DNA of 64,000 nt from Siphonodentalium dalli. Its lineage: Eukaryota > Mollusca > Scaphopoda > Gadilida > Siphonodentaliidae. Location of the stretch: positions 258,519,863 to 258,583,862 of the forward strand of contig CP136064.1 of the NCBI GenBank assembly GCA_032622095.1, written 5' to 3'. The position numbers and the translations under genes are program-made. The notes under the pieces were generated by a model that saw nothing but the letters and a program-made list of their open reading frames with translations, was not told the origin of the DNA and searched no databases. Of this stretch, positions 14,072 to 63,640 are shown one piece after another (within the stretch, counting starts at the first letter, position 1; every line of letters begins with the position of its first letter).

Positions 14072-14463
14072 CCCTTTACCCAACAAACCGGCCAAAACCG
14101 GCCAAATAAAGCTGCAACAGCCTAAATTATCTTGGGTCTGTCTCAATAAAACCATACAAATATGGATATCATTGGAACCGGCTCATTAACCACATTGTGA
14201 TGGTTATAGTTATGCCCTGTGCCAATGCATTCTCTTATATATGCGAGTCGACCATAGGTCGCCTCGCATATATAAGAGAATGCATTGGCCTAAAAAAAAT
14301 CTGTTTTTAACACTTTTTACCATTTTTTCTTACATTATTTAACAATTTTATAATTTTTAATGTGTTAAGCCAATGTATTCTCTTATATATGCGAGGCGAC
14401 CTATGGTCGACTCGCATATATAAGATAATGCATTGGCACAGGGCCCTTCTGTTGGGTAAAGGG
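14072..14463. mobile_element. piggyBac-like MITE (CCCTTTACCCAACA ends) with two hairpin cores
   Basis: Flanked by TTAA on both sides (14068-14071, 14464-14467), with termini CCCTTTACCCAACA and its complement. CCCTTT next to TTAA is the pattern of piggyBac-type ends. Inside are two copies, about 14224-14291 and 14370-14437, of the hairpin core described in the findings, facing each other. No protein. Confidence 0.75.
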
Positions 14464-14832
14464 TTAATAAATAAATCCACGAATCAGATATGGTTTGTCA
14501 TTGTTGAGTATATAATACTCGTTACTCAACCGTTGAATACAAATCACTCAACAAATTATCACTGAACGTGTTGAGTAGAGATTTTATTCAACAAAATTTT
14601 CAGTGGGCGAATTAAGGAGAGTATCACTCGAACTTTTCGACCATACCGGGCACTTGGCGCCAAACTACTTCCTCTAGTCAGAGAATAATTTACATGTAAT
14701 ATCTTCCAAACAGACCATTAACGGATACCATATCGGAATTTCATAAATTTCCTGATATTTCTGATTCGGTCGCTGATTCTGTATATACATGTATTATCCA
14801 GTTTAGTTTCTAGAATTCTTCCAACAAATATT

Positions 14833-15315
14833 AAAGGTACTCAATCCGATAAAACTCCTCTCAATTACTATTTCAATGGCTTTGGGGGTCAAACATATTT
14901 GATTCGAGTCGAGGAAGTCACCCATCAAAGCTCAGATTTGTTAGATATCGATTTTAGAAATCTATTATTTTTCATTATCGGGAATCTTTCTGGCCCAGAA
15001 CTCAGTCAAAATTGCGTTATTATTACCTCTTGATTTTAGAGTTATCCATCCTTGTCTGTTTGAATTATGTTTTGGAGTACACATCTCGCGCAGGTTACGA
15101 AACTGACGGCAATTATTATTTTACTCATCTCGAGAAACTAACAAATTTCAAAAATCAATATCTAATAACTATGAGCTTTGTTTGATGGGTTCCTCGACTC
15201 GAATCAAATATTTTTTAACCCCAAAGCCAAAGAAATAGTAATATAAGACCCTCTGATCGGATTGTTGTTGTTGGAATCTGTTGAGATGGGGACCCTCTGT
15301 TCGGATTGAGTATTT
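14833..15315. mobile_element. TTAAAGGTACTC-family element, copy 2 (near-palindromic)
   Basis: Left end TTAAAGGTACTCAATCCGAT; right end CGGATTGAGTATTTTT, its complement. The arms (TCGAGTCGAGGAAGTCACCC against GGGTTCCTCGACTCGAATC) are inverted over more than 100 bp. It abuts copy 3. Confidence 0.7.
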
Positions 15316-15316
15316 T

Positions 15317-16024
15317 TAAAGGTACTCAATCCGATTCGATGGTCCCCCATATAATCATATTCCAACAAGAACAATTTTTTTTTTTTTTTATTAAATGCCG
15401 CTTCAGCTGTCAGAATCGATTAATTGCCCAAACATAATGCTAACCACAGTCAACTATAATATAACATTGCCCAAAACTTGTTGTTTATCAACATGTTGTT
15501 CGATGAAATTTTTGCCTTATTGATTTTAGAGTTATCCACCTTCGTCCGCAATTTGGTCCGAGACCTCGACTCGTCGACTTTTTGCTGGGCCACTATTAAG
15601 TCTCGATGATGAAAAATAATAGATTATTATTCGTGCTCCGACTGTCGGTGGGATAAGATGTCCCGGATTGAGCGCTCCTGGACATCGCCCATGCACCTGG
15701 CGATCGGATTACTGACTTCAGCGGACAATGGATCGTCTATAATCCCCGCTGAAGTCCTGCAGGCTCGTGTTGAGCTCAAATAAATTGGATCGCTGCCTGA
15801 GTCCTGACCTGGAATTTACACCGGTCACATCTTCAACACTTCATATAACGTACATGCATATCATTAAATTTCCAAAGTGGGTTGTATAGGGAAGGGGTTC
15901 CGCCCCTTCCCAATTCTCCCGGGGTTAAATCCCAAATCCCCAATAAAAAAATAAATAAAATAATTTGTTTTACCCCCGAATCCAAATAAATAGTTATTGA
16001 GAGGCATTTAATCGGATTATGAGT
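15317..16024. mobile_element. TTAAAGGTACTC-family element, copy 3, with an insert
   Basis: Starts TTAAAGGTACTCAATCCGAT and ends near TTTAATCGGATTATGAG. Compared with copy 1 it contains about 350 extra bases (roughly 15600-15955, GC-richer, holding GACATCGCCCATGCACC), probably a nested insertion of unrecognised type. Its right end is about 280 bp before the MIC10 start codon. Confidence 0.6.
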
Positions 16025-16304
16025 CTTTGATTTTGAGTTTAGGCCTATTAGGCCTAAGTCGTAATTTCGAGTTTATGAAGTCGATATTTCGATTTTAATA
16101 GTCGATTTTTTTTCAACGTGTCCCGAATAAGCTTCCGTACTCACTACTTAGATCAATCCGTCTGCAGTAGCCTATCCTGGCCCCACGGCGAAAACATCGG
16201 CCTTCTGTGGAACTGTCCCGTTCGCCCCCTTTTTTTTTTTATCTAACACGTTCCGTTTCAGTTCTGCAATCTTATTCCCAACTTTTGATTTTTTATTTGC
16301 GAGA
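16025..16304 (+). promoter_or_regulatory. Probable MIC10 promoter / 5' UTR region
   Basis: This gap between the last upstream transposon-like sequence (ending near 16024) and the start codon is richer in CpG and C-tracts than its surroundings, for example the stretch near 16175-16220. No TATA box is evident. It must hold the 5' UTR, and probably the core promoter unless a non-coding first exon lies further upstream. Inference from position only. Confidence 0.3.
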
Positions 16305-16389
16305 ATGTCAGAAAGGACAAGTGCTCGATCGGAGGAAGAACTTGGTCATAAATGGGACAGATGTCTCTCTGACACGGGCATAAAACTAG
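16305..16389 (+). CDS. MICOS10: MIC10 exon 1 (start codon to residue 28)
   Basis: Starts at ATG 16305 and encodes MSERTSARSEEELGHKWDRC (first 20 residues) then LSDTGIKL. It ends one base into the next codon, before GTGTTC (phase 1). The ELG-KWDRCL-D block is the conserved N-terminal MIC10 motif. The ATG is chosen because it opens with MSE as in vertebrate MIC10 and leads straight into the motif. Confidence 0.9.
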
Positions 16390-25300: not shown

Positions 25301-28300
25301 GACCCGACCCTGTGTAAATATGTCCATAGCGCACTCAGATTTAGATTATTGAACTAATTGTCCATTAAGTTTGAATCCACAGAAACGTGCCATCCCATTT
25401 CTTCCATATATATATATGGAACATACATGTACATGAATTAATTCCATCGAATGCGCAACAAATGTACCATGCACATGCAGAGTACGTGTACCATCATCGG
25501 TTAGTATTTATAATAATAGCTTATAACCAAGGTGCGTGACCACCGACCTGACAGCTGATTAGAGACAATCAAACTGGCACGCTGACCAATATATACACAG
25601 GTGAAAAGCGGGCTGGTCTATCAGCGATTGCACAATAATATTGTTCGAGTTAATTGTTGAAAGGAAATCACCCATGACGGCATGACCCCAGATAAACATC
25701 TAACTTAACCGCAGAGCAAATTAGAATCCATACGACAATCAGGTGCTTGTACTAAATCATTTTTATCCAAAAGTTGAAAACCGTATAGCTGAGTATCCGG
25801 ATAGCCGTAATTCTTATCCGGCGAAGTATAAACACTCTATTGTTATCGCTGCCGGCTACAGCGAATGCGATCTTCGCCGGGTAATGTATAAACACCCCCT
25901 GAATGTGAGAATCCATTTAGTATAGAAATGTTAATTAAGAATTGTATAAAAAATACTCAACTTCCAGTCAAGAGACGAGCAATATTCTGACATCCATTTT
26001 TAATGTTTTGTTATCTGGATGATAACTTGAACAACATTTTGCATAATTTTATGATATTTGGTACATTGTCTATACAGTTGAGAAAGTTTCAGTAAAATCT
26101 GGTTTGTTAATTAATTATTTCTGATCGAGTTATGCCCCTTTCTGACTGGTTGATTATTTTGATGTCAGGATGATAAACTTAGTTCGCCTAGTTGATCTAT
26201 TGCCATGCGTTGGTGTCTGTGTGTGTGTCTGTCAACCATTCCATTTGGCACACACTACAGGCCACATCCCTTAACCAAACATCACCAAACTTCATATGGA
26301 TCCTCAAAGTGACCTCTGGATGGGAGCTTTATACCATATTTTCCGAATTTTGTAAAAAAACATGTAAAACATCTTGTATTCCATAGTTAACCCTTTACCC
26401 AACAGAAGGGCCCTGTGCCAATGCATTCTCTTATATATGCGAGTCGACCATAGGTCGCCTCGCATATATAAGAGAATGCATTGGCCTAACACATTAAAAA
26501 TTATAAAATTGTTAAAGAATGTAAGAAAAAATGGTAAAAAGTGTTAAAAAATGTTTTTTTTTTAGGCCAATGCATTCTCTTATATATGCGAGGCGACCTA
26601 TGGTCGACTCGCATATATAAGAGAATGCATTGGCACAGGGCATAACTGTAACCATCACAATGTGGTCAATGAGCCGGTTCCAATGATATCCATATTTGTA
26701 TGGTTTTATTGAGACATACCCAAGATAATTTAGGCTGTTGCAGCTTTATTTGGCCAGTTTTGGCCGGTTTGTTGGGTAAAGGGTTAAATCCATTGGCACA
26801 CTCTGCAGCTCACATTTATTGGAGAAATGTTTTGAACATTTATAGGTATTAAATTTGAATGGCAGCTATTTTGTAGTTTGCTCGTTCCATGACTAAATCC
26901 TTGTCACACCCTATATAATCATTATTTCCCATCCGATTGGTCCCTAACTTCATGTGGCTCTCCGGGTTGACCTCCAGTCATTGACACTATCATTATACCC
27001 CCCGCAACGAAGTTAGGGGGGGGGGGGTATACTGGAGTCAGCTTGTCCGTCCGTCGTCCGTCCATGGACACAAATTTGTCCGGAGTTTTTCTCAGTCGTT
27101 TTTTGATCAATTTCCGTGAAACTTGGTACAGACATCAACCACCATGGGAACCTGTGCACCTGCGATTATGACGTCTGTCAGACTTTTTTTGGTGGAGTTA
27201 TCCCCCCTTTTTCAACTTAGAAAATATTCGCAACATGTAACTTTTGTCCGAGCTTTTATTAGCTCACCTGAGACGAAGTCTCCGGTGGAGCTATAGTCAT
27301 CACTCCTCGTCCGTCCGTCCGTCCGTCTGTCCGTCTGTCCGTCCGTCAACTTTTTTAAAAACATCTTCTCCTCTGAAACCATCATACCGAATTGGTTCAT
27401 ATTTGGTGTGGATGTTCCCTAGGTGACTCTCATTCAGATTTGTTCAAATGAGGTCACTGGGTCAAATAGTTGTGAAACCAGGGCCATAACTCTATTCCTC
27501 CACAGTAATTCTTACAACAACTTCTTGTCCATAACCATTGTGCCGATTTAGCTAATATTTGGTATGGAGGGTCCTTGGGTGACTGGTGTTCAGATTTGTT
27601 CAAATGAGGTCACCCGGTCAATTAGTTGAGAAACCAGGGCCATAACTCATAGTAATTCTTACAATGACTTCTTCTACAAAAATATTGGGCCGATTTAGCT
27701 TATATTTGGTACTGAGGGACCTTGGGTGACTGGGAATCAGATTTGTTCAAATTTGGTCACTGGGTCAATTAGGGGCAGAGCCAGGGACATAACTCTAAAA
27801 ACCAAAAAATTACATTTTTGCATTTTGATCATATTTGGTGTGGATGTTCCCTAGGTGATTGTCATTCAGATTTGTTCAAATGAGGTCACTGTGTCAAACA
27901 GTTGCGAAACCAGGGCCATAACTATATTCCTCCTTGGTAATTCTTATAACGAATTCTTGTCAAGAACCATTATGCCGATTTAGTTTATATTTGGTATGTG
28001 GGGTCATTGAATGACTGGGGTTCAGATTTGTTCAAATGGGGTCACTGGGTCAAATAGGGGTGGAGCCAGGGCCATAATTCCCCAAAAAATAATAAAAAAT
28101 TCAGAAACTCCTTGATCAATATAACATACAAACAAAATTATCACCCCCCTCCACATTACTCAGAACCCCACCCTGCCCCCAACCAACAGCATTCCACCCT
28201 ATCTCACCTCCTAACTCACAGGTAAATAAAGTATTTTTTATTTAAATAAATTAAAAAACATTTAATTAAAATTTTGAAGAACTTGTGACATTACATCTTC

Positions 28301-35294: not shown

Positions 35295-35296
35295 TA

Positions 35297-36994: not shown

Positions 36995-37179
36995 TATCAA
37001 GTGATTATTCTGTTTGTTATATTCCACTATAAATATCTGATTTGCCAGAAATCTGAATCATACCACCATTATATCCATAACACATAAATTTTGATACTGG
37101 GTATGAATACATAACAAGCTAGTTAAAGTGACATAATTCACTTGTGAAATTATCGTTTATAATCACTCGAGAAATTGTG

Positions 37180-37623
37180 ACCTGCCATATCAAATCCAGT
37201 CGGAAGTCGGGATTTTTTTACCCTGTTCTAATGCATTCTCTTACAAATGCGAGTCGACCATAGGTCGCCTCGCATATATAAGAGAATGCATTGGCCTAAC
37301 AATTTTTTATCATGTTTTTTAAATAAATGTTTCTTACAATTTTTAGGACATAAAATAAAAAAACATCCATTACCCTGCAGGGAGCCCCACGCATATATAA
37401 GAGTGTCGTCTGCTCATGTTTGTCTGGGGCTCTGTATGGGTGAAATTATAAAATTGTTAAAGAATACAAGAACAAATTATTAAAATTGTAAAAAATTGTT
37501 AGGCCAATGCATTCTCTTATATATGTGAGGCGACCTATGGTCGACTCGCATATATAAGAGAATGCATTGGCACAGGGTAAAAAAAATTCCGACTTACGAC
37601 TGGATTTGATATGGCGGGTCACA
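37180..37623. mobile_element. MITE with TGACCTGCCATATCAAATCC ends and two hairpin cores
   Basis: Inverted ends TGTGACCTGCCATATCAAAT and complement at 37600-37623. It carries two copies of the same hairpin core (37228-37296, 37501-37570) as the TTAA families, although its termini are unrelated to CCCTTT. Confidence 0.7.
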
Positions 37624-38007
37624 ATTGAGGTAAATCACACAGGAATATCATAAAAATGCATAATCGAGGTGACTAATGGGTGAATGTCACCAACTTCAAC
37701 TGGGGAACTTCAATCTGATCCTAGGTCTCCCATTGTGGTTGAGGCCTATGTAGAATGAGGTTCCCAGAGGGTGAATTTGGTGATGCTAGCCTGCCGTGCG
37801 CAATAGCGTCACTAAATTCTCCCTCTGGGGACCTCATTCTGCAAATGTCAGCCACTCTATTTCAAGGCTTTACGAGGGGTGGTAATATGTCAGAATTGCT
37901 TTGAAACATTCAATTGAGCGATGTGACCATTACGTGGTTGCCAACAATAGCCGATTGTGAAGCTCTGTCACCTCCATTCATTCGTCTGCCCATCAATATT
38001 TCTCTAA

Positions 38008-38132
38008 CCCTTTCATGACTGGTGCTTCCTGAATTTTTGCGAAAACCCTGTGCCAATGCATCCTGTTTTATATGCGAGTCGCCCATATATATAAGAGAAT
38101 GCTGCACCAGAGCAGCTCCCGCCATGAAAGGG
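38008..38132. mobile_element. Short piggyBac-like MITE (CCTTTCATGACTGG ends)
   Basis: Ends CCCTTTCATGACTGGTGC and GCCATGAAAGGG next to (C)TAA/TTAA. The hairpin core is internally deleted. Confidence 0.65.
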
Positions 38133-38136
38133 TTAA

Positions 38137-42030: not shown

Positions 42031-42127
42031 TGGTACAGCATCAGTTGTCGATTTGGCAAACTCAGAAGCAACATAGATCCCAACAAACAAGGGTCCAATA
42101 GAAACATGATTGTACTCAACATATCCT

Positions 42128-43292: not shown

Positions 43293-43390
43293 CTGAGAAT
43301 TTGGCATTCTCAATACGTGTTCAGTGTTTTGATGTTGAATCAGGAAATTATATGAGAACATTGCTTTATGATAAGAGTTGAGATGCTGAA

Positions 43391-43462
43391 TTAGAAGTTT
43401 CCTGACAGCATGGCGTTTTCCACATAAGTATTCAGTGCTTCGTAGCAGAACTCAAACTGGTC
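43391..43462 (-). CDS. RPTP last coding exon
   Basis: 72 nt in phase 0 after [30 protein letters not shown] then GNF and TAA. The [10 protein letters not shown] helix is the standard PTP C-terminal helix, as in exon d, and the protein ends soon after it, as is usual for receptor PTPs. A decayed copy of this exon lies about 100-350 bp downstream on the same strand. Confidence 0.9.
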   Translation of the reverse strand, partial: DQFEFCYEALNTYVENAMLSGNF

Positions 43463-49400: not shown

Positions 49401-52400
49401 TGCACCTGCGATTATGAGGTCTGTCTGATGTTTTTTGTGGACTTATCCCACTTTTTCGATATGGGGGTATACCTTAGTTCCACCTGGGACAGGCCCATCT
49501 CTAGTTTAATTAACCCTTTCATGATGGGTGCAGTGCTGGTGCAGCATTAAAGATCCAGTGCCAGTGAATTCTCTAATATATGCGAGTCTCCCATAGGGAG
49601 CCTCGATTATTAAGAGAATGCACTGGCTTACAAGGTCAAGGTAAATATTGATAGGCCAATGTATTCTCTTATATATGTGAGGCTCCATATGGAAGACTTG
49701 CATATATATAAGAGAATGCATTGGCACAGGGTTTTCGCAAAATTTCAGTAAGGGTTAATTTCGCTTTCAGCAATCGAGCCAAGTATGTTCTAATTATAGT
49801 GAGTATGGTCTGGTTGTCAAAATATAAATGGTAGAAACATTCAGTTGAGTCGCAGAGAAGGAATTTTTGTTTGACTTTTATGCTGCATCTATGGACTGTT
49901 ACTCATTACAATTGACGATTGTTCACAGTAGTGAAAGTCACCTGACTTTATAAAATTGTGCAATTTCTTTGCCAAATAACTGGACTGTGCCTTTAAAGTT
50001 ATATGAAACACTCTGGCAGGATGATCAAATAGAAATGGGGAATAATCTTGCTCAAAGTAATTATGTTTACGATTATTAATTCCAATTGACAACACACACA
50101 ACATCATTCTGATATATTAACAAAATGCAATGACTCGCGATGGTGAAACTTATGTTTGTTTGTTGCCGATAGATGCGTCCCGAACCAGATGTAAATATTT
50201 ACAATTGGGCATAGTTCAGACGATGATTTCTATGGAGTCGTATGGTAGATTTCTTTGAAATTTTCGCAGATGTTTGTAAAATGCTACATTCCCCATATTG
50301 CCATTACTCCTGAGTATTAAATAGTCAGTTTCACACACCCGAACAAGGCCATAATATGTCTTTAATGTAAACAAGAGCATCACTAGGGCAGGGCAAAATA
50401 CACCCATGGTAAGTCCAACAAAGGGCCATAACTCTGGTAAAAATTGGCAGGCTGAACACAAACTCAAACTTGACCTGTATTTGGACCAGTAAACTCACAT
50501 ACGAGATTTCATTCCATTCAGTTCAGACTTACTAAAGTTATCATCCGGAAACAAATATTGAGTGCAAATTCCAACAGAAAATCATGACGCTGGTGAAAAT
50601 TGGTGGGCATAACCTGAATTCAAACTTAACCTATATTTGGTGCTAGTAAACCCACGTACCAAATTTCATTCCTTTCAGTCAAGACTATCTGAAGATATCA
50701 TCAGAAAGCAAAAGCAAACGGACGGACCAAAACAAAATGCATCCCATTTTTTTAAAACGGTCGTATAAAAATCGCTTAAATAAGTATTATTGAGGCATAT
50801 AAAGTTCATGTATATTATGTATTTCTCAATCTTAGTCCCTGGAATGTGACATTATGAGCAGCTACAGGCAAGTATTGAAAACACTACTGTCATTTGCAGA
50901 ATGAGTTCCCCAGAGGTGAATTTAGGATGCTATCCCACACAGTGGGCTAGCATCACCAAGTTCACCCTTTGGGAACCTTATTCTGCATGTCCTCTTCCTC
51001 TGGGAAGTATTTATAGTCACAAATTTTTAGTTTTAGTTACTTTTTTCCCTTATGCTCAGTTTCTATATCCCCTAATTTGCAGAAGATAAAACGCATAATC
51101 GAGGTGAAGCTGGGTGAACATCACCAACTGGGGAACTTCAATCTGATCCTAGGTCTCCCAAGCAGTTGAGCATAAGCAGAATGAGGTTACCAGAGGGTGA
51201 ATTTGGTGACGATCGCCTGCTGTCCGCCGGGATAGTGTCACTAAATTCATCCTTTTGGGACCTCATTCTGCAATTGTCAGACACTATTTGCAGGCTTGGC
51301 TACTAGATTTAGTTTGATGCCTGATGATTGTTTGTCCAGAGAATGGTATTAGGAGGTTTTATTTACTTTACAAAGTTCAATTATAGACATTGACTGACAT
51401 TCAGGATGTTTTGAAAATAACACATAGGGGACCACAATGCTAATATATCACAAAATATTATACAAGATAGGTTTTTTTTTTAGCTCACCATGCAGAAGAG
51501 ACAAAGTATACAGTAGTGCTATAATAATGTTTAGAATGAATTTATGGCTTAAAACTGTCAACTAATTTTGACTAATGACGTATACATGTAGTAACGTTGC
51601 CACTTGTGATCCAAATAAAACCTCAAGTTTTTATGTTGAAAATAATTTTGTAACGAGATTGGAGTATCAATCAAAAATACTGCTATACTACTTACAGTTA
51701 TATACACCTATAATTATTTTTAACTAACTTCGGCATGTTGCTATGCTGAGACTTTAACCCTTTCTGTACCAAATAGATTCTCCCACTCAGTTATAAAAGT
51801 ATGTTCAGGTAATAAAAGCAGACAACGACAAATAGACAAAAAATGCAGAAGGATTCTTAATCAATAGTGGGAAATGTTCACATACAAGTTCAACAAATAA
51901 CCTTTGTAGAACTTATTATCTGAATATTTTCTAAGGGATAATTACTTGTAAATGAGTATTTAGTATGATAAGTGTGAAGATAATTATCCTGTGTTTCACG
52001 TTGAAATAGCAATACTGGATATACTACCTTGTTGTTAGCTGTTTGTTCTTCATGCAACATGACCACTGTTGAACAATTTTGGTCGTAGACAAGCCGCCAG
52101 AAATCCACAACCGTGTTTCGAAGAGGAGTCTGTGTGATGATTCGTGAAAACTTATCTTTGTCACTCTGTCAAAATCGAGAGAGAAGAGAAATCAAAGTTG
52201 GTTATGTCATGCATGATCAATATATGTATGCAATATTGAACTTGTAAAATCAGACAGAAATTCTGAGAGTAATATATGTCAGCTTAAAGGTCCACTTAAT
52301 TTTCGAACCCCCATATTTAAAAAAAAATGTATGCCATATTATATACCATTTGAAAGAGAAAGCACCAAAACATTGTATTGTCAACTCTATAGAGTTATTC

Positions 52401-55400: not shown

Positions 55401-58400
55401 ACTTTTTAAAATAAATCCCCAAGTGTACGACAGGGCTATCTCACAGCCAAATTTGATCTGGAAAAACCCAGATCTACAACAGCTAGTTAAATACATTTCC
55501 CGCTCACAAAAATCCATTCCCCCATTCATTCACCAGTTTAAATTATTTTGATATTATGTACAAATCAAATAAACGCGATGTCATCCTTTAATAACGTGTC
55601 GCATGTATCAGGTGAAGGTCATTCTTCAGTTACCTTCACCTTTAGGGTTCCACGGTGTACTCGCTCCCCGACTCTAGAACACATTTAGCTCCCTGATTCC
55701 TATATATATGTATATGTGTGAATAACAGCGTTTCTTATAGTATTTTATCAAAATATAGACCTTACTGAAATCAAAAATGGATTATATCGAGCAGTAGTGG
55801 TTTATTTTTCCAATATGAGGCATCCTGAAAATTAGTGTCAATCCTCAAAATAAAGCCAAAAAATTTAGCTTTTTTTTCAATTTTACTAGCTAATGCATGT
55901 TGTATAACTGAAGTATGTCCTTATATACCATAATATTACTAAATTGAAGAGGAAATGTTAATATACATTTTGAGAGGGATATATTGTCCAATTTTAAACC
56001 CTTTTCATGCAGAATTTGGCAATTTATAATAAATATTTACCAAAATTAACAGAAAATAATTTATTTTTTTTAATAGCAATGTAAAGCAACCATAAGTCAA
56101 TTTAAATATCGAAACATTATGATACGACATCAGACACAGCCTCAGGCATGAAATTTTACCAGATGGCAGGGCCTACTGTCTGTTTAACAAAGCTGCCATG
56201 ACAGTTTTGCACGACAGTAACTCTAGTGGTGATGCAACAGGTGTACGACAGGGCTATCTCACAGCCAAATTTGATCTGGAAAAACCCAGATCTACAACAG
56301 CTAGTTAAATACATTTCCCGCTCACAAAAATCCGTTCCCCCATTCATTCACCAGTTTAAATTATTTAGATATTATGTACAAATCAAATAAACGTGATGTC
56401 ATCCTTTAATAACGTGTCGCATGTATCAGGTGAAGGTCATTCTTCAGTTACCTTCACCTTTAGGGTTCCACGGTGTACTCGCTCCCCGACTCTAGAACAC
56501 ATTTAGCTCCCTGATTCCATTAGAGCCTGGTGTAGAAAGACATACTGGTCCTGCAGCAAAGTAATAGTTCCATGTTAATTGGTTATTGTAGTCCCTGTCA
56601 ATTTACCATTAGTCATTTAAATAGCTAATATAAAAACTCTAAAATATCCACCTAATACCGAGGCGAGTCACATGAATTTAAGGTTGCAGGCATACATATG
56701 TGTATCCAGGGGGTATACACAAGCAAACATTTCCTCGAAAATCCAGCTGTGACCCTTATAAAATTAATTTAATTAAATAGATAAATATATATAAAAAAAA
56801 GTTCCCAGACCCCTGTGGAAACAAATTTCCGAGATGCCTTCCTAAATGCACCTGGAATGGAGTTTATCACATGAATATTCTGCAGTATATCCTTACTTGT
56901 TTCTGCACCATGTTTACACGTTGCGACCTCAGGTCCTTGACACATTTATAAATATCCAGCACACCATCCGTGGAACCTTGCTCAAGAAGATAGTCGAGGG
57001 CTATAAATGTACCAGTTCGACCTATTCCAGCACTACAAAATAAGATAAAACATACATTTAGCCTAAAATTAGTTTCAATTAGTCCCTGTTAACATGATTT
57101 TTGTTTCCTTCGTGAGCCGATATTGCAATAAACATTGATTGATTACCCATGAGAAATTCTATGCTTGTACAGACAGCCTAGTTTTGAGTCTTTATTATCA
57201 CAGCTAGGGAGGCTTCTAACGCATTCTGCTGCCCTACCCCTCTCCGCCCTATACACACCCCTGCTATAATGTCATTGTACTGTATAAGAACATATAAAGT
57301 ACCATGACAGGGGTATGTATAGCCTAGCTATAGGGATGGCGCATAAAGGCAGCAGCGGAGTACGTTACAAGAAAACCATAGTCAGACATGGTAACGCCCT
57401 CAAGATCATATTATTAGGCATATATAAATCATAATATAAAATATACTGGTTTCATGAATGCACCACCCCAGTATTCCATAAAACAACTAATCCTTCAAAT
57501 TGTTACAACAAATATGGCTTATCACTGAAGCTTTCTCATTCACACACCATGCAGAAAGCCTCTAAATGCAGACCATAAATCTACTTATCGGATTAAATAC
57601 AGCCCCGATACTTCGAAATACGACCTTTAGTCTACATTCCATACATACTTCATCAGCAATGTTAGCTGTTATATTATGCATTGTGTTCCTGTAATAAAAT
57701 TTTCAAGAGTGGCTCAGCCATTGTTCACGCCTAAATATCGAAATCAATTAACGTGGTCATAAAAGATACATACTGCAACAATGAGACATACGCCAAAATA
57801 CATCCGCGAATATATACATCCTGCACGAAGTTTAACTCGTACGCAATATAATGAGTATGTTATTAATCAAAGTTACCCCATAGCTCCTATGACATCGCCA
57901 GATCAGCCTTGCAGTATACACCCTGTAACAAGGCCCTGTGCTTTAACTCTTTCATGACGGGAGCTGCGCTGGCGCAACATTAAAGACCCTGTGCCAACGC
58001 ACTCTCTTATATATGCGAGTCAACCATAGGTCGCCTCGCATATATAAGAGAATGTATACGCCTAACATTTTTTATATTTTTTTCTTACATTCTTTAACAA
58101 TTTTTATAATTTTTTATCATTATTTCTTACATTCTTTATCAATTTTTATAATTTTTTCTTACATATTTATAATTTTTTTATCATTATTTATTACATTCTT
58201 TAACTATTAATATCATTTTTTTTATTTTTTCTTACATTCTTTAACAATTATAAAAAAAATATAAAATTTGTTAGGCCAATGCATTCCCTTATATATGCGA
58301 TGCGACCTATGGTCAACTCGCATATATAAGAGAATGCATTGGCACAGGGTTTTCGCAAAAATTCAGGTATTTCCCATCATGAAAGTGTTAATAATTATTT

Positions 58401-60895
58401 ATATGTACTGACCTGCAGTGTATGACTACTGGGCTGACTGATAATTTCATCTCGTGTTTTACGACATCGTGGAACTGTACAAGCTCGCCAGCTGTCTTAG
58501 GTACACCATGATCGGGCCATGCTGTGAAGTGATACTGCTTCAGGTTCCTGCGCAAATCTGTTGATATCTGTACCAATAATCAAGGTGCCGACTGGTGAAA
58601 ACTAGAGGCGGGACGGACCCAGTGGGACTAAGCAGTGGCGTAGGAGCAGGTACGGCCGGACGGTTTTGTCCGTACCAATATTCACAGCTGTGAAGTTTTT
58701 TGTTGTTACAAGCGTGGGAAAGGTGCGATTGGCGATAGTCATAAAACACAGAATGTGAAACTTCTATGATGCCATGCTGCTTAATTTATAGTTCTTATCG
58801 AAGAAACGTCGTTGACTATATCATGTTATCCCTATCTGTCTTCGATAATTAAGGCCCCGGGCCATAAATTCCCAGCATGACATATAAATTGATATAATAT
58901 GTATCTCAAATTCCCTTTCCCCGCTTCTCCCATAATTTAATTTAACTTAATTTATTTATATTGTACTGCTCTTTTACTGTCTCAAGTTAGCAGATATGTG
59001 ATTGTGTCAAGTTAGTAAAAAATGTCAAGATTAAGATAGAAGACATGTGTACCACATTGCGGCCATGATTCCTGGAACCACCATACATGTATGTCTCATC
59101 TATTATTCAAGCTCTATATATTCATTGGTATGATATATATCTCTTCCATTCAGCAAAATTAATTATCCATCGTCGTTCCTGTATTCGTGGAATTTTCTTT
59201 TGGAGGAGTAATTTTATCGTGGAAAACCGCTTTAAGTATTGGTGATTAATTTGTACTGCAACATTGTTTGTCTTATTTGTGTGACACGTGCGTCGGGACA
59301 TGATTCATTCAGATGCTATACATGCATGGTTGTTATACCGGTGAGTATTGATGCATGTTTCATTCTTTTCTCCCAGCATGTGTAATGTAACATTGGTTAC
59401 GCCAAAATGCACCAGAAAGCGCCATTTCAATATTGAATATTAAAAAAATTCCCAATTTCGGAAGTGGGGACACCCCCTTCCATACCATCCTCCCTTCTTG
59501 ACGCTCCACGCGCCTCGGAGCCGCGCAAGCGCAGCTATGGAATTATGCCTATGGGCCGTAGGAATACTTATACCCTTCCTACGCCTCTGCTAAGGAAACC
59601 CCCCCACAGTGCAATTGGGCAATTGTTGCAATTAAGGGTAGTTATATAGTTAGTGGATTCCTATCTGGTCGTACAATTCCCGGCAGAGTTCAAATAACAA
59701 CTATCAGTCAAAAAGGCATACTTTATTAACATGGGCAAGACATGCATCACAGGTCCATTATGGAGTAAGCTGGTATGCTTGGTAGGATACAGCATGCCAC
59801 TTTAAGAAAACAGCATAAGATTTACTTTGGTATTTGTTTGGAAGCCAAGCACCAGTAAATGTGGTTTACATTAGTATTTGATTCCTGCAAGCTGGTGTGG
59901 CTTTAACCTGGACAATATTACAACCAAACAACAGCAAAACCATTACTACCTCTATACTGGACCAGGTATGCACCAACTGAGGTGTATTAGAATTAGGTGA
60001 TTTTATAATGAGGAGCATAGCAGATAGAGTTGTCTCTCTTGTAATGTTCATTTGTATATAGCAGTATAATAAAGACATCCACTTGAATGAACATTACAGG
60101 AGGGCAAATCTGCATCCGCTACATATTAACCCTTTACCCAACAAACCGGCCAAATAAAGCTCCAACAGCCTAAAATATCTTCGGTCTGTCTCAATAGAAC
60201 CATACAAATATGGATATCATTGGAACCGGCTCCTTGACCACATTGTGATAGTTACAGTTATGCCCTGTGCCAATGCATTCTCTTACATATGCGAGTCGAC
60301 CATAGGTCGACTCGCATATATAAGAGAATGCATTGGCACAGGGCCGTTCTGTTGGGTAAAGGGTTAACATATGTTTTTCAAAATGAAACACAAGGAATAC
60401 AAAACTATGCTGCTTGTGAAAAATTCCGTTGAAAAAGGGGGATAACTCCACTAACAAAAAAGACGGACGAGCCTCATATAAATATGACTCCTTCTATACT
60501 ATTAATTATCTGTCGTCTGCTTATATTACCAGTACATCCCTGCAGATCAATAATAGGCCATTCCGATGCACACTTTTTAACTGACTGGGAGAATCCAATT
60601 AGTATAGAAAGGGCTAATAATTGTTTATACATGTATGTACCATTTATTATAGACATGGTTAAAGTGGTACCTTGTTTGTTCGTTTGTTTTTCGATCTGAA
60701 TGATAATATCCCCACATGTGCCCATGTCCGAACAGTGCAGTTTAATTTTCAAATGAACATTGTACAAACCTCGATGATATCCAGTGTTCTGACTGTATGT
60801 CCCGTGTGAACATCCATGTCTGACAAATGAGTTTTGTATTCATCAAATTCTTTGGTCTCTGTCACGTTGTCAGGCCAGAACTGCTCGCATTTTTC
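43391..60895 (-). CDS. Receptor-type protein tyrosine phosphatase, 3' part with tandem D1-D2 domains (5' partial)
   Basis: Eleven exons on the minus strand (60770-60895, 58413-58567, 56897-57032, 54947-55096, 54268-54367, 53686-53759, 52028-52165, 48567-48695, 46355-46509, 44900-45035, 43391-43462) join in frame to 456 aa plus TAA. The visible protein starts inside D1. D1 has the general-acid loop WPDHG (59-63 of the visible segment) and the P-loop [10 protein letters not shown] with nucleophile C93 and R99, so it should hydrolyse phosphotyrosine. D2 follows from about residue 195: [27 protein letters not shown], a degenerate WPE (352-354), and HCMNGADRCG with C387 and R393. The chain ends [10 protein letters not shown]...NAMLSGNF. 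Two tandem domains with weakened D2 mark a receptor PTP; ectodomain, membrane helix and early D1 exons must lie beyond the right edge. Subfamily cannot be fixed from this part. Introns are 0.5-3.3 kb and full of MITEs. Confidence 0.92.
43463..44440. other. RPTP last intron, unique part
   Basis: No gene or repeat recognised; AT-rich. Short minus open frames lack motifs. Confidence 0.3.
44441..44559. mobile_element. CAGTAATGC MITE deletion derivative
   Basis: Full left arm but the right arm is reduced to GCATTACTG, directly joined after CTCTCGGGGA; TA on both sides. In the RPTP last intron. Confidence 0.75.
44601..44856. mobile_element. piggyBac-like MITE (CATGACAGGAGC ends), eroded
   Basis: CCCTTCCATGACAGGAGCTT to TCCGATCATGACATGG; two hairpin cores of the CTCCC/GGGAG type (44646-44713, 44738-44806). 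It ends 44 bp before RPTP exon j's donor side. Confidence 0.65.
44900..45035 (-). CDS. RPTP exon j (D2 pseudo-P-loop)
   Basis: 136 nt: completes Met, then [40 protein letters not shown] and LIRTP before GTTAGT. With exon i it makes HCMNGADRCG in place of HCSAGxGRTG. Acceptor CCTCCCAAG is short on pyrimidines but is the only one fitting both phase and homology. Same length and phases as exon c. Confidence 0.9.
45194..45581. mobile_element. piggyBac-like MITE with a CAGTAATGC MITE nested in its first hairpin
   Basis: TTAA before CCCTTCCATGATGGGAG (45190-45193) and CATGAAAGAGTTAA at the right. The first core is broken at its TATATA by a palindromic element (45262 to about 45388); the second core (45472-45534) is intact. 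Confidence 0.72.
45262..45388. mobile_element. CAGTAATGC MITE, shortened, nested in a hairpin core
   Basis: Left arm to CCATTCATCGG, then directly TTAAGGAGTCGATTATTGAG and GCATTACT. Inserted at a TA of the host core. Confidence 0.7.
45686..45896. mobile_element. Palindromic CAGTAATGC MITE
   Basis: 211 bp, TA flanks at 45684-45685 and 45897-45898; arms near perfect. In the intron between RPTP exons i and j. Confidence 0.82.
45899..46354. other. RPTP intron, weak inverted repeat
   Basis: AGCATCTATCAGTCCTTCCCA near 45962 and its approximate complement near 46312-46340 suggest an old TIR element of about 380 bp. Otherwise nothing recognised. Confidence 0.35.
46355..46509 (-). CDS. RPTP exon i (D2, degenerate WPE loop to P-loop Cys)
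   Basis: 155 nt in phase 0: [20 protein letters not shown], then [20 protein letters not shown] and [11 protein letters not shown] plus AT. The catalytic Asp of WPD is Glu here (WPE). The split codon gives Met, making HCM. It has the same length and phases as exon b of D1. Acceptor TTCCACAG, donor GTAAGT. Confidence 0.9.
46639..46851. mobile_element. Palindromic CAGTAATGC MITE
   Basis: 213 bp between TA copies; arms as in the other members. Just upstream of RPTP exon i. Confidence 0.82.
46929..47089. mobile_element. Palindromic CAGTAATGC MITE, 161 bp, in a palindromic site
   Basis: Perfect arms ending at GGCTTGTTAGCC. Flanks TAATGGCAATA and TATTGCCATTA are complementary, so the empty site would itself be a palindrome. 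Confidence 0.8.
47090..47851. other. RPTP intron, unique AT-rich
   Basis: No feature recognised. Confidence 0.3.
47856..48289. mobile_element. piggyBac-like MITE (CCCTTTACCCAACA ends)
   Basis: TTAA at 47852-47855 and 48290-48293; two hairpin cores (48005-48073, 48198-48264). Spacer expanded by a TTTTTTCTTACATT repeat. Lies between RPTP exons h and i. Confidence 0.78.
48567..48695 (-). CDS. RPTP exon h (D2, KYWSD segment)
   Basis: 43 codons in phase 0: [20 protein letters not shown], then [20 protein letters not shown] and KNQ before GTTAGT. It corresponds to exon a of D1 (126 nt there, 129 nt here). Acceptor ATTTACAG. Confidence 0.9.
48756..48919. repeat. 49-bp tandem repeat (CCAGTGCAGTATGTTG)
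   Basis: Units start at 48756, 48805, 48854 and 48903 with a constant 49-bp period and very few changes, so the array is recent. About 60 bp upstream of RPTP exon h. Confidence 0.9.
48971..49505. repeat. CCCCCGCAACGAG element with three tandem 175-bp units
   Basis: Head CCCCCGCAACGAGTTGTGGG; units share CCATGGGAACCTGTGCACC, GCGATTATGAGGTCTGT and GAGTTATC; tail GGGACAGGCCCATCTCTAG. Confidence 0.8.
49514..49754. mobile_element. piggyBac-like MITE (CCCTTTCATGATGGGTG ends)
   Basis: TTAA flanks; two hairpin cores of the CTCCC/GGGAG type (49564-49626, 49654-49724). Confidence 0.72.
49759..50344. other. RPTP intron, no feature recognised
   Basis: AT-rich sequence; no motif or repeat noted. Confidence 0.3.
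50345..50745. repeat. AACAAGAGCATCACTAGGGC repeat with two 175-bp units
   Basis: Units share GGTAAAAATTGGCAGGC / GGTGAAAATTGGTGGGC, AAACTCACATAC / AAACCCACGTAC and TTTCATTCC, ending in ACGGACGGACC. An AACAAGAGCACGCC start also occurs at 63816. Confidence 0.65.
50880..51296. mobile_element. GAATGAGGTCCCC-family MITE
   Basis: CTGTCATTTGCAGAATGAG, CCCTAATTTGCAGAAGATAA and TCTGCAATTGTCAGACACTA; two imperfect hairpins. Confidence 0.7.
51297..52027. other. RPTP intron with piggyBac-like fragments
   Basis: 51754 onward has TTAACCCTTTCTGTACC and 51880-51970 has ATTTTCTAAGGGATAATTAC, TGAGTATTTAGTATG, rearranged parts of the CCCTTTCTATGC family. The rest is unique. Confidence 0.45.
52028..52165 (-). 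CDS. RPTP exon g (D2, TQTP and DFW motifs)
   Basis: 46 codons in phase 0: [20 protein letters not shown], then [20 protein letters not shown] and QTANNK before [22 protein letters not shown] matches the D2 version of the TQGPL...DFWxMV block. Acceptor TTTTGACAG. Confidence 0.92.
52166..53585. other. RPTP intron, no mobile element recognised
   Basis: AT-rich with AATAATAATAAC microsatellite near 52735-52765. Two loosely related blocks near 52960-53060 and 53470-53570 share GGTGTTACAAATATT and ACTTATATTTT, probably an old duplication. Confidence 0.4.
53586..53713 (-). repeat. 64-bp tandem duplication covering the RPTP exon-f donor
   Basis: Bases 53586-53649 and 53650-53713 are two near-identical 64-bp units, each holding the last 30 or so bases of exon f, its GTATGT donor and some intron. 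The copy nearer the true exon body is used in the gene model. Use of the downstream donor would add 64 nt and shift the frame. Confidence 0.8.
53686..53759 (-). CDS. RPTP exon f (D2, DYINA segment)
   Basis: 74 nt: completes Ser, then [20 protein letters not shown] and VFMP before GTATGT. NDYINA is the conserved PTP strand. The 3' edge with its donor is tandemly duplicated 64 bp downstream. Confidence 0.88.
53760..54267. other. RPTP intron, no feature recognised
   Basis: AT-rich, no repeat noted. Confidence 0.3.
54268..54367 (-). CDS. RPTP exon e (start of D2)
   Basis: 100 nt after a TTTTTAG acceptor: [20 protein letters not shown], then [13 protein letters not shown] plus one base before [15 protein letters not shown] is the conserved opening of a PTP domain (KNRYxNILP in active domains). 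The split codon joins to Ser in the next exon. Confidence 0.9.
54537..54692. mobile_element. GAATGAGGTCCCC-family MITE, short single-hairpin form
   Basis: Ends AACAAGCCTGCAAATAGTGT and GACAGACACACTATTTCAAG; only one hairpin and no central core. Confidence 0.72.
54779..54929. mobile_element. Half CAGTAATGC MITE joined to stray minisatellite units
   Basis: 54779-54826 holds ATGGTGGGTCCTTCTGAATT and ATGATGGTGGGTCCTGCTG, two inverted units of the 61911-62275 minisatellite. 54827-54929 is one arm of the palindromic MITE, ending GCATTACTG before TA. Only 17 bp from the RPTP exon-d donor. Confidence 0.7.
54947..55096 (-). CDS. RPTP exon d (end of D1 and linker)
   Basis: 50 codons, phase 0: [20 protein letters not shown], then [20 protein letters not shown] and [10 protein letters not shown] before [18 protein letters not shown] is the C-terminal helix of a PTP domain; the rest is the D1-D2 linker. 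Its 5' edge and acceptor are locally duplicated (separate entry). Confidence 0.9.
55051..55222 (-). repeat. 87-bp tandem duplication covering the RPTP exon-d acceptor
   Basis: A unit with the first half of exon d, its TTTGCTGCAG acceptor and flanking intron is repeated with a period of about 87 bp (GATGATAGG at 55051 and 55138). Splicing to the outer acceptor would read [16 protein letters not shown] and then reach TAA, so the extra copy cannot encode a functional D1 end. Confidence 0.8.
55423..55700. repeat. Direct duplication, copy A (partner 56241-56519)
   Basis: A 278-bp block beginning GTGTACGACAGGGC and ending CTCCCTGATTCC is repeated in the same orientation at 56241-56519 with only a few differences. 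Both lie in the intron between RPTP exons c and d. No coding content recognised. Confidence 0.85.
55701..56240. other. AT-rich spacer between the direct duplicates
   Basis: No motif recognised. Confidence 0.3.
56241..56519. repeat. Direct duplication, copy B (partner 55423-55700)
   Basis: Second copy of the same block, with single-base differences such as ATCCATTCC against ATCCGTTCC. It adjoins the displaced exon-d acceptor copy. The intervening 540 bp (55701-56240) are AT-rich and unique as far as I can see. Confidence 0.85.
56518..56585 (-). repeat. Third partial copy of the RPTP exon-d acceptor
   Basis: About 65 bp again match the start of exon d with its GCTGCAG acceptor, some 1.4 kb upstream on the minus strand. 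It adjoins the second copy of a 278-bp duplication, so the exon edge probably travelled with a larger rearrangement. Confidence 0.65.
56897..57032 (-). CDS. RPTP exon c (D1 P-loop)
   Basis: A 136-nt exon beginning with the last base of Ser and reading [19 protein letters not shown], then [20 protein letters not shown] and NMVQKQ before GTAAGG. With the preceding exon it makes [10 protein letters not shown], the active PTP signature, followed by the LRxQRxxMVQ helix. Acceptor TTTTGTAG. Confidence 0.94.
57033..57942. other. RPTP intron, no feature recognised
   Basis: Unique-looking intron sequence without a recognised element. Confidence 0.3.
57947..58387. mobile_element. Hybrid piggyBac-like MITE (CTCTTTCATGACGGGAG ends, GTCGACC-type cores)
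   Basis: TTAA at 57943-57946 and 58388-58391. Termini belong to the CATGATGGGAG family but the two hairpin cores (57998-58058, 58276-58344) have the CAACC/GGTCG and CGACC/GGTCA forms of the CCCTTTACCC family. The spacer is a TTCTTACATTCTTTA repeat. It ends 25 bp from RPTP exon b. Confidence 0.72.
58413..58567 (-). CDS. RPTP exon b (D1 WPD loop to catalytic Cys)
   Basis: A 155-nt exon: [20 protein letters not shown], then [16 protein letters not shown] and on to VSPVVIHC plus two bases AG that complete the Ser of HCS. It carries the catalytic Asp in WPDHG and the nucleophilic Cys. Donor GTCAGT, acceptor GGTACAG. A 957-bp transposon-like element lies just upstream in the intron. Confidence 0.93.
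58633..59589. mobile_element. TIR element with 5-bp CTAAG duplication
   Basis: Ends CAGTGGCGTAGGAGC and the complement of CAGAGGCGTAGGAAGG, flanked by CTAAG on both sides (58628-58632 and 59590-59594). CAGNGGCGTAG resembles hAT-type ends, though hAT usually gives 8 bp. No transposase found; the open frame at its right end is not coding as far as I can tell. Confidence 0.65.
59595..60125. other. RPTP intron, no feature recognised
   Basis: No repeat or motif noted. Confidence 0.3.
60130..60363. mobile_element. piggyBac-like MITE (CCCTTTACCCAACA ends), single-core form
   Basis: TTAA at 60126-60129 and 60364-60367. Only one hairpin core (60270-60335), whose stem is fully symmetrical (GTCGACC against GGTCGAC), unlike the others. 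Confidence 0.78.
60490..60617. mobile_element. piggyBac-like right-end fragment
   Basis: TTCCGATGCACACTTTTTAA, CTGACTGGGAGAATCC and TTAGTATAGAAAGGGCTAA match the right end of the 23843-25930 family. It provides the empty-site comparison for the insertion at 24301. Confidence 0.55.
60770..60895 (-). CDS. RPTP exon a (mid D1)
   Basis: First exon visible here. Phase 0 at both ends, 42 codons: [20 protein letters not shown] and so on to TVRTLDIIE, then a GTTTGT donor. The KCxQFWPD block is the usual segment of PTP domains after the region contacting phosphotyrosine. The acceptor is TTTCAAG. Exons upstream of it, encoding the start of D1, were not found before 64000. Confidence 0.88.
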
Positions 60896-61152
60896 CTTGA
60901 AATTGAAGGTAAATAAACTTAAAGATTCAACAAGGATTCACCACTGGATTGATCACCATATTATCTTAATGTTTTCTATACTGCATCCTATACCGGATAT
61001 ATCGAATTGATCTCATGACACTCATTCAAATTGAACGTGGGTTTACCCTCAGATATCAACTTTGTATGGGACGATTCTGACTTTCAGCACAACGTCCAGA
61101 AAGTCGGAGTACCTACCACAAAGAGCTTTCTTTTTCTTGCCCAACAGAGGTA
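60896..61152. other. RPTP intron upstream of the first visible exon
   Basis: No further RPTP exon found here or up to 64000. Confidence 0.35.
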
Positions 61153-61364
61153 CAGTAATGCTCTAATTAATCGACTCCTTAAACACAGCAGAATTATGGG
61201 TAACTTTTCAGGATTAGTCGGAAATATGACTTGTTGCCATTCATCGGAAAGCTCTCCCCTAGAACTTTCCGATGAATGGCAACAAGCCATATTTCCGACT
61301 AAATCCTGAAAAGTTACCCATAATTCTGCTGTGTTTAAGGAGTTGATTAATTAGAGCATTACTG
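61153..61364. mobile_element. Palindromic CAGTAATGC MITE
   Basis: TA flanks (61151-61152, 61365-61366); arms near perfect, with AAACACAGCA in place of AACCACAGCA on both arms, a matched change. Confidence 0.82.
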
Positions 61365-61577
61365 TATATATTGAAGATTGTTTGTTTGGTTGACAACAAT
61401 TAAAAAGCAAGTGTTTGTATGACACATTCAAGAACAAATATATTTTATATAATTATGTTAATAATGATGTCGCTGGTGTCTACAAAAAGGGGGATATCCA
61501 TCTCAATTATGGCTGGTTTGCAACAACCAACACAGCCGTTGTTAACGTATTTCACAATCTATGAATATAGACGTTAA

Positions 61578-61803
61578 CCCTTTCAGTGCCAGGGGCCGAT
61601 CTCATCGGCCCTAATTTACGGTCTGTAAAATCGGCCCTAAAAAAATAAAAAAATAAAAAACAATAACAAATGATGAAAAATTGTTAGGCCAATGCATTCT
61701 CTTATATATGCGAGGCGACCTATGGTCGACTCGCATATATAAGAGAATGCATTGGTACAGGGTATATGGGTTGATACAAAAATCGGACCTGGCACTCAAA
61801 GGG
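61578..61803. mobile_element. piggyBac-like MITE (CCCTTTCAGTGCCAGGG ends)
   Basis: TTAA at 61574-61577 and 61804-61807. Third terminus type: CCCTTTCAGTGCCAGGGGCC, with the right end CCTGGCACTCAAAGGG. One hairpin core of GTCGACC type (61690-61755). Confidence 0.75.
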
Positions 61804-61910
61804 TTAATGAAGGAATTCAACACATAATATTGCATGGCTTTTCCTCGAAATATTCATCTCAGCCAAACACAGCGAAAATTACTTTTTTTCTTCTTTGCCC
61901 TATACCAGCA

Positions 61911-62275
61911 TGATCATAGCAATTCAGCAGGACCCACCATCATCATAGCAATTAAGCAGGACCCACCATCATCATAGCAATTCAGCAGGACCCACCAGCT
62001 TCATAGCAATTCAGCAGGACCCACCATCATCATAGCAATTCAGCAGGACCCACCAGCTTCATAGCAATTCAGCAGGACCCACCAGCTTCATAGCAATTCA
62101 GCAGGACCCACCATCATCATAGCAATTCAGCAGGACCCACCAGCTTCATAGCAATTCAGCAGGACCCACCATCATCATAGCAATTCAGCAGGACCCACCA
62201 GCTTCATAGCAATTCAGCAGGACCCACCATCATCATAGCAATTCAGCAGGACCCACCATCATCATAGCAGGCAGG
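61911..62275. repeat. 29-bp minisatellite (CAATTCAGCAGGACCCACCA)
   Basis: About 12 units of 29 bp; each has AGCAATTCAGCAGGACCCAC and ends either in CATCATCAT or CAGCTTCAT. The two versions intermix. No unique spacers, so not a CRISPR array. Confidence 0.92.
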
Positions 62276-63440
62276 ACCACTTAGCCTATAACCAGGGGTG
62301 GCAATTTAGAGGTGCCAAATCAGATCGGTCATCTAACTAACTGGATGTATCGGGTGTACTGAGATATATGATAGAACTAACGTTTAAAGATTCCCGGTAT
62401 TATTTAACACAAAATTTTGCATACCGCATATACCATTATTATGGCACACTGAAATGAGTTATACTTGCTACCACCATCATTCGTACTGCACAGGTATAGC
62501 GAAAATCCACAAAACTACCCATTTGTAATACCAAACTGCAAGGCAGAGTTCTGTCCCCTCGCTATGCTGGTCTGGCCACTGCCATCACTTATATATACAT
62601 AATTAAATATATCATTTTTTATCCAAGAGTTTTGCCGATTATAATTCATTCTGGTTCTACTAGCCAATTTCCAAATGAATATGGATAGTTCGGGATCTCA
62701 AAAGTCAAGTCCTAGCTAAAAAAATGCTTTCCTCACATTATGTGTATGTGGTGTTGGGCCAATCGTGGTCAGGCCAGCGAATCAGGGACTGAACTCTGCA
62801 TTACAATTTGAAGTAGTATGTCGAAAACGATCGAACAATCTCATAATTAAGAATGCTCTTTGTTATCTACTGCTTTTGGGCAACAGAATCATCAACGCTC
62901 TTTATCAGAGATGATCATCAGAATTTTTGCTTGGCTGAGCCTGACACAAAAAATTCAAAACGTGTTGAAATTCGTCCTTTGAAAGACGATATTTGTCCAT
63001 CAAGGCCTTCTATTACGGTATGTTCATACTCTGGCATTTTCTCATATAAAACCCTATATGGTGCCAGAATATGAACGGCAACATACACATCAAATGTATA
63101 TTCACAAAGCTAACAACACGAGAAGTAAAATTTTGATAGTTCCACAATGTAACGGTGCTAATAACACACTGCCTTAAAGTACCTGTATTATACTATTATT
63201 CATCCTTGCGAGATAATTGCATGCTATTGACAAGCAAATTTTGATAGCATCGCTACAAGTACCAGACTAATAGTGGAACTACATAGTTTTTTGTTACTTC
63301 TCATGTAGTTAGTTGTGGTATGGTACGGACACTGGTACGGATGCTTTTTTTATAAGCATTTTTGCCTTTGATTTCTGGCATATTGCAGCTATCTATACTG
63401 TTATGCCTGCAAAATAATGCATTGCACACTTTCCAGTATA
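62276..63440. other. Right-hand flank, mostly unrecognised
   Basis: 62310-62335 (TTTAGAGGTGCCAAATCAGA) recalls the right end of the TTAAAGGTACTC family. No RPTP motif was found. It may be intron of the RPTP gene or intergenic. Confidence 0.3.
62887..63017 (+). CDS. Weak plus-strand exon candidate
   Basis: Open between GGGCAACAG and GTATGT: reads SSTLFIRDDHQNFCLAEPD, then TKNSKRVEIRPLKDDICPSR and PSIT. Composition is protein-like and the splice sites are plausible, but I recognise no family and no partner exon. Could be chance. Confidence 0.12.
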
Positions 63441-63449
63441 AGAATGTAC

Positions 63450-63640
63450 CCATAACCATTTCATGACTGAAGATTCCTGAATTTTTGCGAAAACTCTGTG
63501 CCAATGCATTCTCGTATATATGCGAGTCGACCATAGGTCGCCTCGCATATGTAAGAGAATACATTGGCCTAACATATAATTTTTTATAATTGTTAAAATG
63601 TAAGAAAAACTGAAAAAAAAAAGGGTCAAAGAATGTAAGA
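63450..63640. mobile_element. piggyBac-like MITE left part with one hairpin core
   Basis: ACCATTTCATGACTGAAGAT resembles the CCCTTTCATGACTGG end of 38008; core at 63503-63565 is GTCGACC type. The right end was not found before the window edge. Confidence 0.6.

Follow-up and report, generated by a model that had tools for sequence, protein, structure and literature searches.

Several described systems resemble parts of the element reported here. The piggyBac-type miniature inverted-repeat transposable elements (MITEs) mPok1 and mPok2 of Daphnia are short, duplicate TTAA on insertion and have ends like those of piggyBac elements in the same genome, and for metazoan piggyBac MITEs 50 to 2x10^4 copies are quoted (PMC4912750). 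Near the ends of piggyBac and piggyBat elements, the transposase dimer uses two cysteine-rich domains to bind palindromic motifs of 14 and 19 bp (PMC11707139). In Galileo, a Foldback-like element of Drosophila, chimeric copies with ends from different subfamilies were proposed to form by exchange between inverted repeats (PMC3573991). Multi-base compensatory changes in the stems of RNA genes have been attributed to template switching, and the authors describe the evidence for maintenance as circumstantial (PMC8794818). We analyzed a stretch of 64,000 nucleotides from the scaphopod mollusc Siphonodentalium dalli (contig CP136064.1, positions 258,519,863 to 258,583,862; hereafter the window) in which a 67-bp hairpin recurs. 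We conclude that this hairpin is the core module of very abundant, apparently gene-less, non-autonomous DNA transposons (MITEs), and that matching changes in its two arms mainly reflect a few ancestral source copies and not ongoing upkeep of the fold.

The S. dalli elements share their short length, TTAA duplications and piggyBac-like ends with mPok1 and mPok2, but they contain paired internal 67-bp hairpins and, with 119,200 exact copies of one hairpin tip, not all of them TTAA-flanked, they far exceed the numbers quoted for metazoan piggyBac MITEs. A palindrome near TTAA ends also recalls piggyBac and piggyBat, yet it measures 67 bp here as against 14-19 bp and is absent from the transposase-coding elements that we sampled. 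As in Galileo, inverted repeats appear to recombine and to give chimeric ends; Galileo chimeras stay within one P-element family, however, whereas the present core spans two kinds of target duplication. The multi-base paired stem change is like those of RNA hairpins, but it sits in a DNA transposon with no ongoing upkeep of pairing detected. Among the papers listed in a literature search, none was seen to describe this hairpin core.

The hairpin core and the elements around it

The window holds 39 matches to the stem start CCAATGCATTCTCTTATATA with at most three mismatches, compared with 0.02 expected from shuffled sequences, and a profile derived from three hairpin strings of assigned type retrieved 21 hairpins, two of them partial. 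A reading made from the letters of the window only (hereafter the sequence-only reading) had listed about 21 dispersed copies of a core of about 70 bp, and all its positions were recovered to within a few bases; that at 45240, however, is the first part of a split hairpin, and that at 38055 a decayed copy with a deletion. The consensus is a 67-bp palindrome with 32-base arms, the loop ATA and a single T/C mismatch, and folds as RNA at -50.9 kcal/mol (z -13.9). Both tip types named in that reading, CGACC/GGTCG (type 1) and CTCCC/GGGAG (type 2), are present in the window and share the mismatch. The exact 25-base type-2 tip occurs there once, in the hairpin at 31577; the copy at 49561 is one base off and the other type-2 copies more. 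New here are the inverted pairing of hairpins, their setting in TTAA- or A/T-flanked MITEs, a T/A variant at 60270 and a third change on both arms.

Among 163 hairpins collected, we found 56 inverted pairs at most 700 bases apart. The typical order is hairpin, AT-rich spacer and inverted hairpin, with short arms and the element ends outside. Four end types surround this one core (F1 to F4): the hairpins are common to all, as by eye are motifs of the spacer, and the ends are not. Ends of F1, F2 and F3 begin TTAACCCTTT and read TTAACCCTTTCATG, TTAACCCTTTACCCAACA and TTAACCCTTT(G/C)AGTGCCAGG, respectively, and these elements have TTAA duplications; the F4 end is GTGACCCGCCATATC (GTGACCCGCC ends), with 4-bp A/T duplications other than TTAA. 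Most elements measure about 220-480 bp and have inverted ends and a target duplication, as MITEs do. The typical copy length leaves no room for a transposase gene, and the 2.4-kb interior of locus L089, the one locus for which open reading frames were listed, wholly contains none of 80 aa.

Elements built on one core thus show target duplications of two kinds. When the surroundings of hairpins were searched for TTAACCCTTT-like ends, 29 rows resulted, two of them mis-set, and TTAA stood at both ends in 23 of the 27 usable F1-F3 rows, a count that includes near-duplicate loci and for which elements with worse ends were not sought. F1-F3 combine TTAA with the CCC..GGG ends of piggyBac. The same search showed a single hairpin in all 14 F3 rows. 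For F4, 14 rows (L106-L108 among them), of which four are near-duplicates, represent 10 distinct loci: seven have an exact A/T duplication of at least four bases (ATAT, ATTT, AAAT or AATT), three have no clean duplication, and none of the 10 has the TTAA of piggyBac. A Sola-type origin may be considered for F4.

Two empty sites support insertion at TTAA. L018 lacks the F3 element of L015: one TTAA remains at the joint, and 76 of the 79 bases that span it agree. L015 in turn lacks the F2 element of L018, again with a single TTAA. The sites are reciprocal and lie within one repeat (paralogous); they cover one F2 and one F3 copy and none of F1. Candidates at L091 and at window position 48089 came from a mis-set element edge and were rejected, as was L011/L012 in L013 (75% match, joint without TTAA); the near-duplicates L026/L038/L039 and a match in L021 were left out of this evidence.

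The elements of the window are listed below; strand is given for hairpins listed singly, and the elements have none assigned.

14068..14467: F2 MITE (TTAACCCTTTACCCAACA ends) with two type-1 hairpins, 97% identical to 26387-26787
14222..14288, + strand: type-1 hairpin, from stem-start matches and profile
14370..14436, - strand: type-1 hairpin, inverted partner of 14222..14288, from stem-start matches and profile
26387..26787: F2 MITE in opposite orientation to 14068..14467, type-1 hairpins 26418-26484 and 26567-26633, from profile and identity comparison
31526..31809: F1 MITE (TTAACCCTTTCATG ends) in which satellite-like sequence has taken the place of the right half; single type-2 hairpin 31577-31643, with the window's only exact type-2 tip
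37177..37622: F4 MITE (GTGACC ends, AATT target duplication), type-1 hairpins 37228-37294 and 37504-37570
38004..38136: decayed F1 MITE whose one hairpin, from 38053, is damaged; edges set by eye
44596..44860: decayed F1 MITE, type-2 hairpins 44646-44712 and 44742-44806; edges by eye, the right one approximate
45190..45586: F1 MITE with type-2 hairpins, the left (45240 to 45445) split by an inverted-repeat insertion, the right at 45469-45535
47852..48293: F2 MITE, type-1 hairpins 48006-48072 and 48196-48262, from profile
49510..49758: F1 MITE, type-2-like hairpins from 49561 and 49656
57943..58391: F1 MITE with type-1 tips, hairpins 57994-58060 and 58276-58342
60126..60367: F2 MITE, single hairpin 60270-60336 with a T/A pair replacing the T/C mismatch
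61574..61807: F3 MITE (TTAACCCTTTCAGTGCCAGG ends), one type-1 hairpin 61689-61755
63501..63567, + strand: type-1 hairpin flanked by an F1 left arm whose TTAA end has mutated, from profile

By eye, the insertion that splits the hairpin at 45240 is another inverted-repeat element (AGTAATGCCC ends) at about 45264-45380, and the remainder of the hairpin lies at 45381-45445. A further dispersed hairpin family, with inverted repeats (C/T)AGAATGAGGT(C/T)CCCAGAGGGTGAATTT, occurs at 23962-24157 and 37750-37845.

The copy number is high and dispersed, as in MITEs. Exact type-1 tips number 119,200 in the 2.23-Gb genome and exact type-2 tips 3,288. Twelve 10-kb stretches (120 kb) held 17 hairpins of any state, all in six of the stretches and none in the other six, from which we extrapolate roughly 315,000 hairpins genome-wide; the window is denser.

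Changes in the two arms

The sequence-only reading had proposed that the paired difference between the tips and their shared mismatch reflect a maintained fold, or repair that copies one arm onto the other. Pair counts were made on the collected hairpins after 53 gapped or incomplete ones were excluded, which left 110 complete, ungapped copies (70 of type 1 and 40 of type 2); five near-duplicate type-1 rows were then removed, leaving 65. Type was assigned by the tip itself, which conditions the counts for both tip pairs. Forty loci had been picked via an anchor that called for CCTAACA next to one hairpin and for an outer stem left intact, and another 20 because their tips were of type 2 or had changed at both members of the pair; all 60 lie on the first part of C1, and the window and the 12 stretches are the unselected sample. 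L106-L110 were collected after the pair counts and stand outside them; L106 and L108 entered the comparison of identity between loci.

Once inserted, the two arms mutate independently. In type 1 (65 hairpins, 2,015 cells) we counted 51 one-arm changes and one two-arm change, not Watson-Crick, with 0.4 expected; in type 2 (40 hairpins), 167 one-arm changes stood against 17 two-arm changes (10 of them Watson-Crick), with 15.2 expected. Genome-wide, the G-C pair of the type-1 tip shows 2,640 one-arm changes (121,876 consensus tips and transitions together, minus 119,200 consensus tips and 36 doubles) and 36 A-T doubles, one-arm changes being 73 times commoner. Were the arms to change independently, no more than 14.6 doubles would be expected among copies of equal age, and 23 to 31 once rate variation as measured among 70 and 21 copies is allowed for, so that the doubles amount to 1.2 to 2.5 times expectation. 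In the dispersed copies, neither upkeep of the fold nor arm-to-arm copying is supported.

The T/C mismatch is inherited, and nothing guards it. The mismatched T had changed in 522 copies in which the rest of the tip was exact. Among the first 100 of these listed, from C1 and C2 only, 42 had G, which forms a pair, 36 had C and 22 had A; the T thus turns into a pairing G as readily as into other bases.

The difference between CGACC/GGTCG and CTCCC/GGGAG is one of source lineage, between older F1 and younger type-1 cores. F2, F3 and F4 have one identical type-1 consensus with a mean divergence of 1.0-1.2%, and type-2 F1 hairpins, at about 6%, differ from it in both arms at the two tip pairs. In type-2 F1, stem pair 4 of the right hairpin has also gone from A-T to G-C, the third change to affect both arms, and the left hairpin has one one-arm change, tied 6 to 6. 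Five F1-flanked hairpins nevertheless bear type-1 tips (window 57987, 58270 and 63495, and two in L035), which indicates that the tip change happened with F1 ends in place. Genome-wide, 4,435 tips have changed at both members of the G-C pair, and 3,288 of them are exact type 2; among 100 such tips listed, 24 were not exact type 2, and by eye 20 of these 24 are one step from it. A further type, CACCC/GGATG, with an A-T pair there, was seen at two look-alike loci (L066 and L067).

Between the F1 and type-1 consensuses, three of the four changed stem pairs are altered on both arms and are Watson-Crick. With random placement of the seven changed positions, three both-arm pairs have p about 0.0005; with the adjacent tip pairs taken as one event (two both-arm pairs), p is 0.004. 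A mixed type-2 group ('other'; 13 hairpins, five from one tandem array), at first left out of this test, adds one more one-arm change, and p becomes 0.002, or 0.012 with the tip pairs as one event. Such an excess between consensuses implies that the source lineage either retained its pairing or formed it anew. To this extent the proposal made for the inner stem survives, at the level of the sources; no upkeep is seen in dispersed copies. The sequence-only reading had also named what would speak against it, namely arms mutating independently, paired changes no commoner than chance and two founder copies. This is largely what we observe: the paired tip change tracks two founder types, with the source-level excess left over, and descent from two source types explains most of the covariation.

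Probable mobilization, possible exchange of ends and rival explanations

We consider it likely that the hairpin is a MITE core module whose copies derive from a few sources, that its arms decay independently and that the hairpins can also be sites of recombination. F1-F3 would move at TTAA by means of piggyBac transposases supplied in trans, and F4 with its other ends and different target duplication. Copies would inherit the palindrome and the T/C mismatch from a few source elements before their arms decay, and near-identical hairpins could recombine, so that element ends are fused, lost or exchanged; such end-swapping may have founded families with unrelated ends around one core. Observed directly are the anatomy, the TTAA and A/T target duplications, the independence of the arms, the two source types and a single locus at which an F1-type hairpin bears an F4 end, whereas supply of transposase in trans, a founding role of end-swapping and the origin of paired changes in the sources are inferences.

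Mobilization of F1-F3 in trans by piggyBac transposases is most likely, judging from sequence resemblance. The genome contains piggyBac transposase genes with uninterrupted frames (at least 128 PF13843 matches, with 116 of 649 candidates scored), and we looked at flanks of 28 of these matches. TTAACCCTTT ends occur in 8 of 20 sampled 5' flanks; that of L079 reads TTAACCCTTTACCCATCACATCGGC and resembles the F2 end, and that of L001 (TTAACACGTTGAGTGCCGG) resembles the F3 end. These ends are similar and not identical to F2 and F3, and none matched F1.

At L089, recombination within hairpins looks to have joined an F4 end to an F1 hairpin. Here the hairpin at 9340 is of F1 type and yet is followed by an F4 end, adjoining an F4 hairpin, whereas a 540-base tandem duplicate of this region (98.9% identity) retains the F1 end. 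Three hairpins of the locus are identical for about 30 bases ahead of the switch, which makes an exchange there its likely cause. The window hairpin at 60270, which lacks the mismatch, likewise looks like a recombination product, with the left half of one hairpin and the right half of its partner. Exchange of this kind is a possible route by which families with unrelated ends came to share a core.

Two side observations concern the same locus. By eye, an F4-like element whose left end is truncated lies between direct repeats of about 34 bases (L089 6291-6324 and from about 8943), which differ from the 4-bp duplication usually seen. Satellite-like repeats that contain GGCCAAAAAACATGGCCGC motifs lie between two hairpins of an F4-like element at L089 6430-8600 and occur free at 32488-34032 of the window.

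Several results weigh against descent from a few piggyBac-mobilized sources as a complete account. The 36 doubles are somewhat above every expectation, and both-arm changes between sources exceed chance, so that plain descent alone is insufficient. At the mismatch G outnumbers A (42:22, binomial 0.017), which hints weakly that one arm is now and then copied onto the other, although local duplicates may be among the copies listed. The hairpin was found in none of eight loci with both flanks and 20 more 5' flanks of transposase genes, apart from a weak partial match at L081, and an exact short hairpin seed was found in none of five 3' flanks. End-swapping has been seen at a single locus. Exact-match patterns recovered no core-less F1, F2 or F4 element from the genome (0, 0 and 0), a search that would miss diverged copies.

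For pairing at the source level, selection and template switching both fit, and the events are too few to separate them. Selection on source elements might preserve the palindrome because it forms a fold or a cruciform or offers a symmetric protein site, while dead copies drift. Three both-arm Watson-Crick changes against one one-arm change speak for it, as do palindromes near piggyBac ends that the transposase dimer binds (PMC11707139). We rate it as less likely than not, given that the events number two or three, the motifs in that paper are 14 and 19 bp rather than 67, sampled flanks of transposase-coding piggyBac lack the hairpin, and the F3 elements found have one hairpin each. The paired tip change could also have arisen in one step, by rare hairpin-templated repair or template switching in a source copy. 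Two adjacent near-loop pairs differ together, multi-base compensatory changes in RNA genes have been so attributed (PMC8794818), and the pair-forming G prevails over A among the T changes just mentioned. Against this, paired changes after insertion are near chance (36 versus 15-31 expected), the mismatch two bases away is kept in both types, so that the copied tract would span only a few bases, and the reversed loop TAT is absent among the loops tallied (105 hairpins); we see it as conceivable rather than probable.

Two further explanations concern the nature of the core itself. Its presence in four end contexts would be expected if it were a transposon inserted into several MITE families. We judge this improbable, as flanks inspected by eye show no consistent target duplication at the core edges, no exact empty MITE was found, and F3 holds just one hairpin; a simple core-insertion model was set aside for want of the edge duplications. 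A role as small-RNA precursor, with the hairpin kept for the sake of an RNA product, agrees with its very stable fold, but the arms decay independently, the copies fit the structure and number of a transposon, and Rfam gave no match at gathering score in the window at 14000-64000; we regard it as very improbable.

Arrangement of copies and meaning

Some copies on C1 recur in larger arrangements. Between about 1.73 and 3.67 Mb, five pairs of loci (L022/L032, L023/L031, L024/L030, L025/L027 and L106/L029) are 96-99% identical and inverted, and their positions mirror each other, which suggests either an inverted duplication on the megabase scale or an assembly (haplotype) artefact. At 727,825-926,287, hairpin pairs recur at a spacing of about 11.17 kb (837-916 kb) and about 14.56 kb (742-771 kb), which suggests long tandem arrays containing the MITE. 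L013 1-541 is a tandem array in which single-hairpin units repeat about every 97 bases, so that a MITE has become a satellite.

Covariation within repeats is often read as structural selection, and the genome-wide counts made here separate inheritance from the source from change after insertion: the paired signal is almost wholly inherited from source elements. What is unusual in these MITEs is their copy number and the span of one core across two target-duplication systems. Conceivably, though we think it rather doubtful, recombination at the core enables a single MITE lineage to swap ends and to borrow both TTAA-type and A/T-type transposases, which drove its extreme amplification. A core common to TTAA-type and A/T-type MITEs, together with one apparent end-swap, offers a testable route by which such elements may escape dependence on a single transposase.

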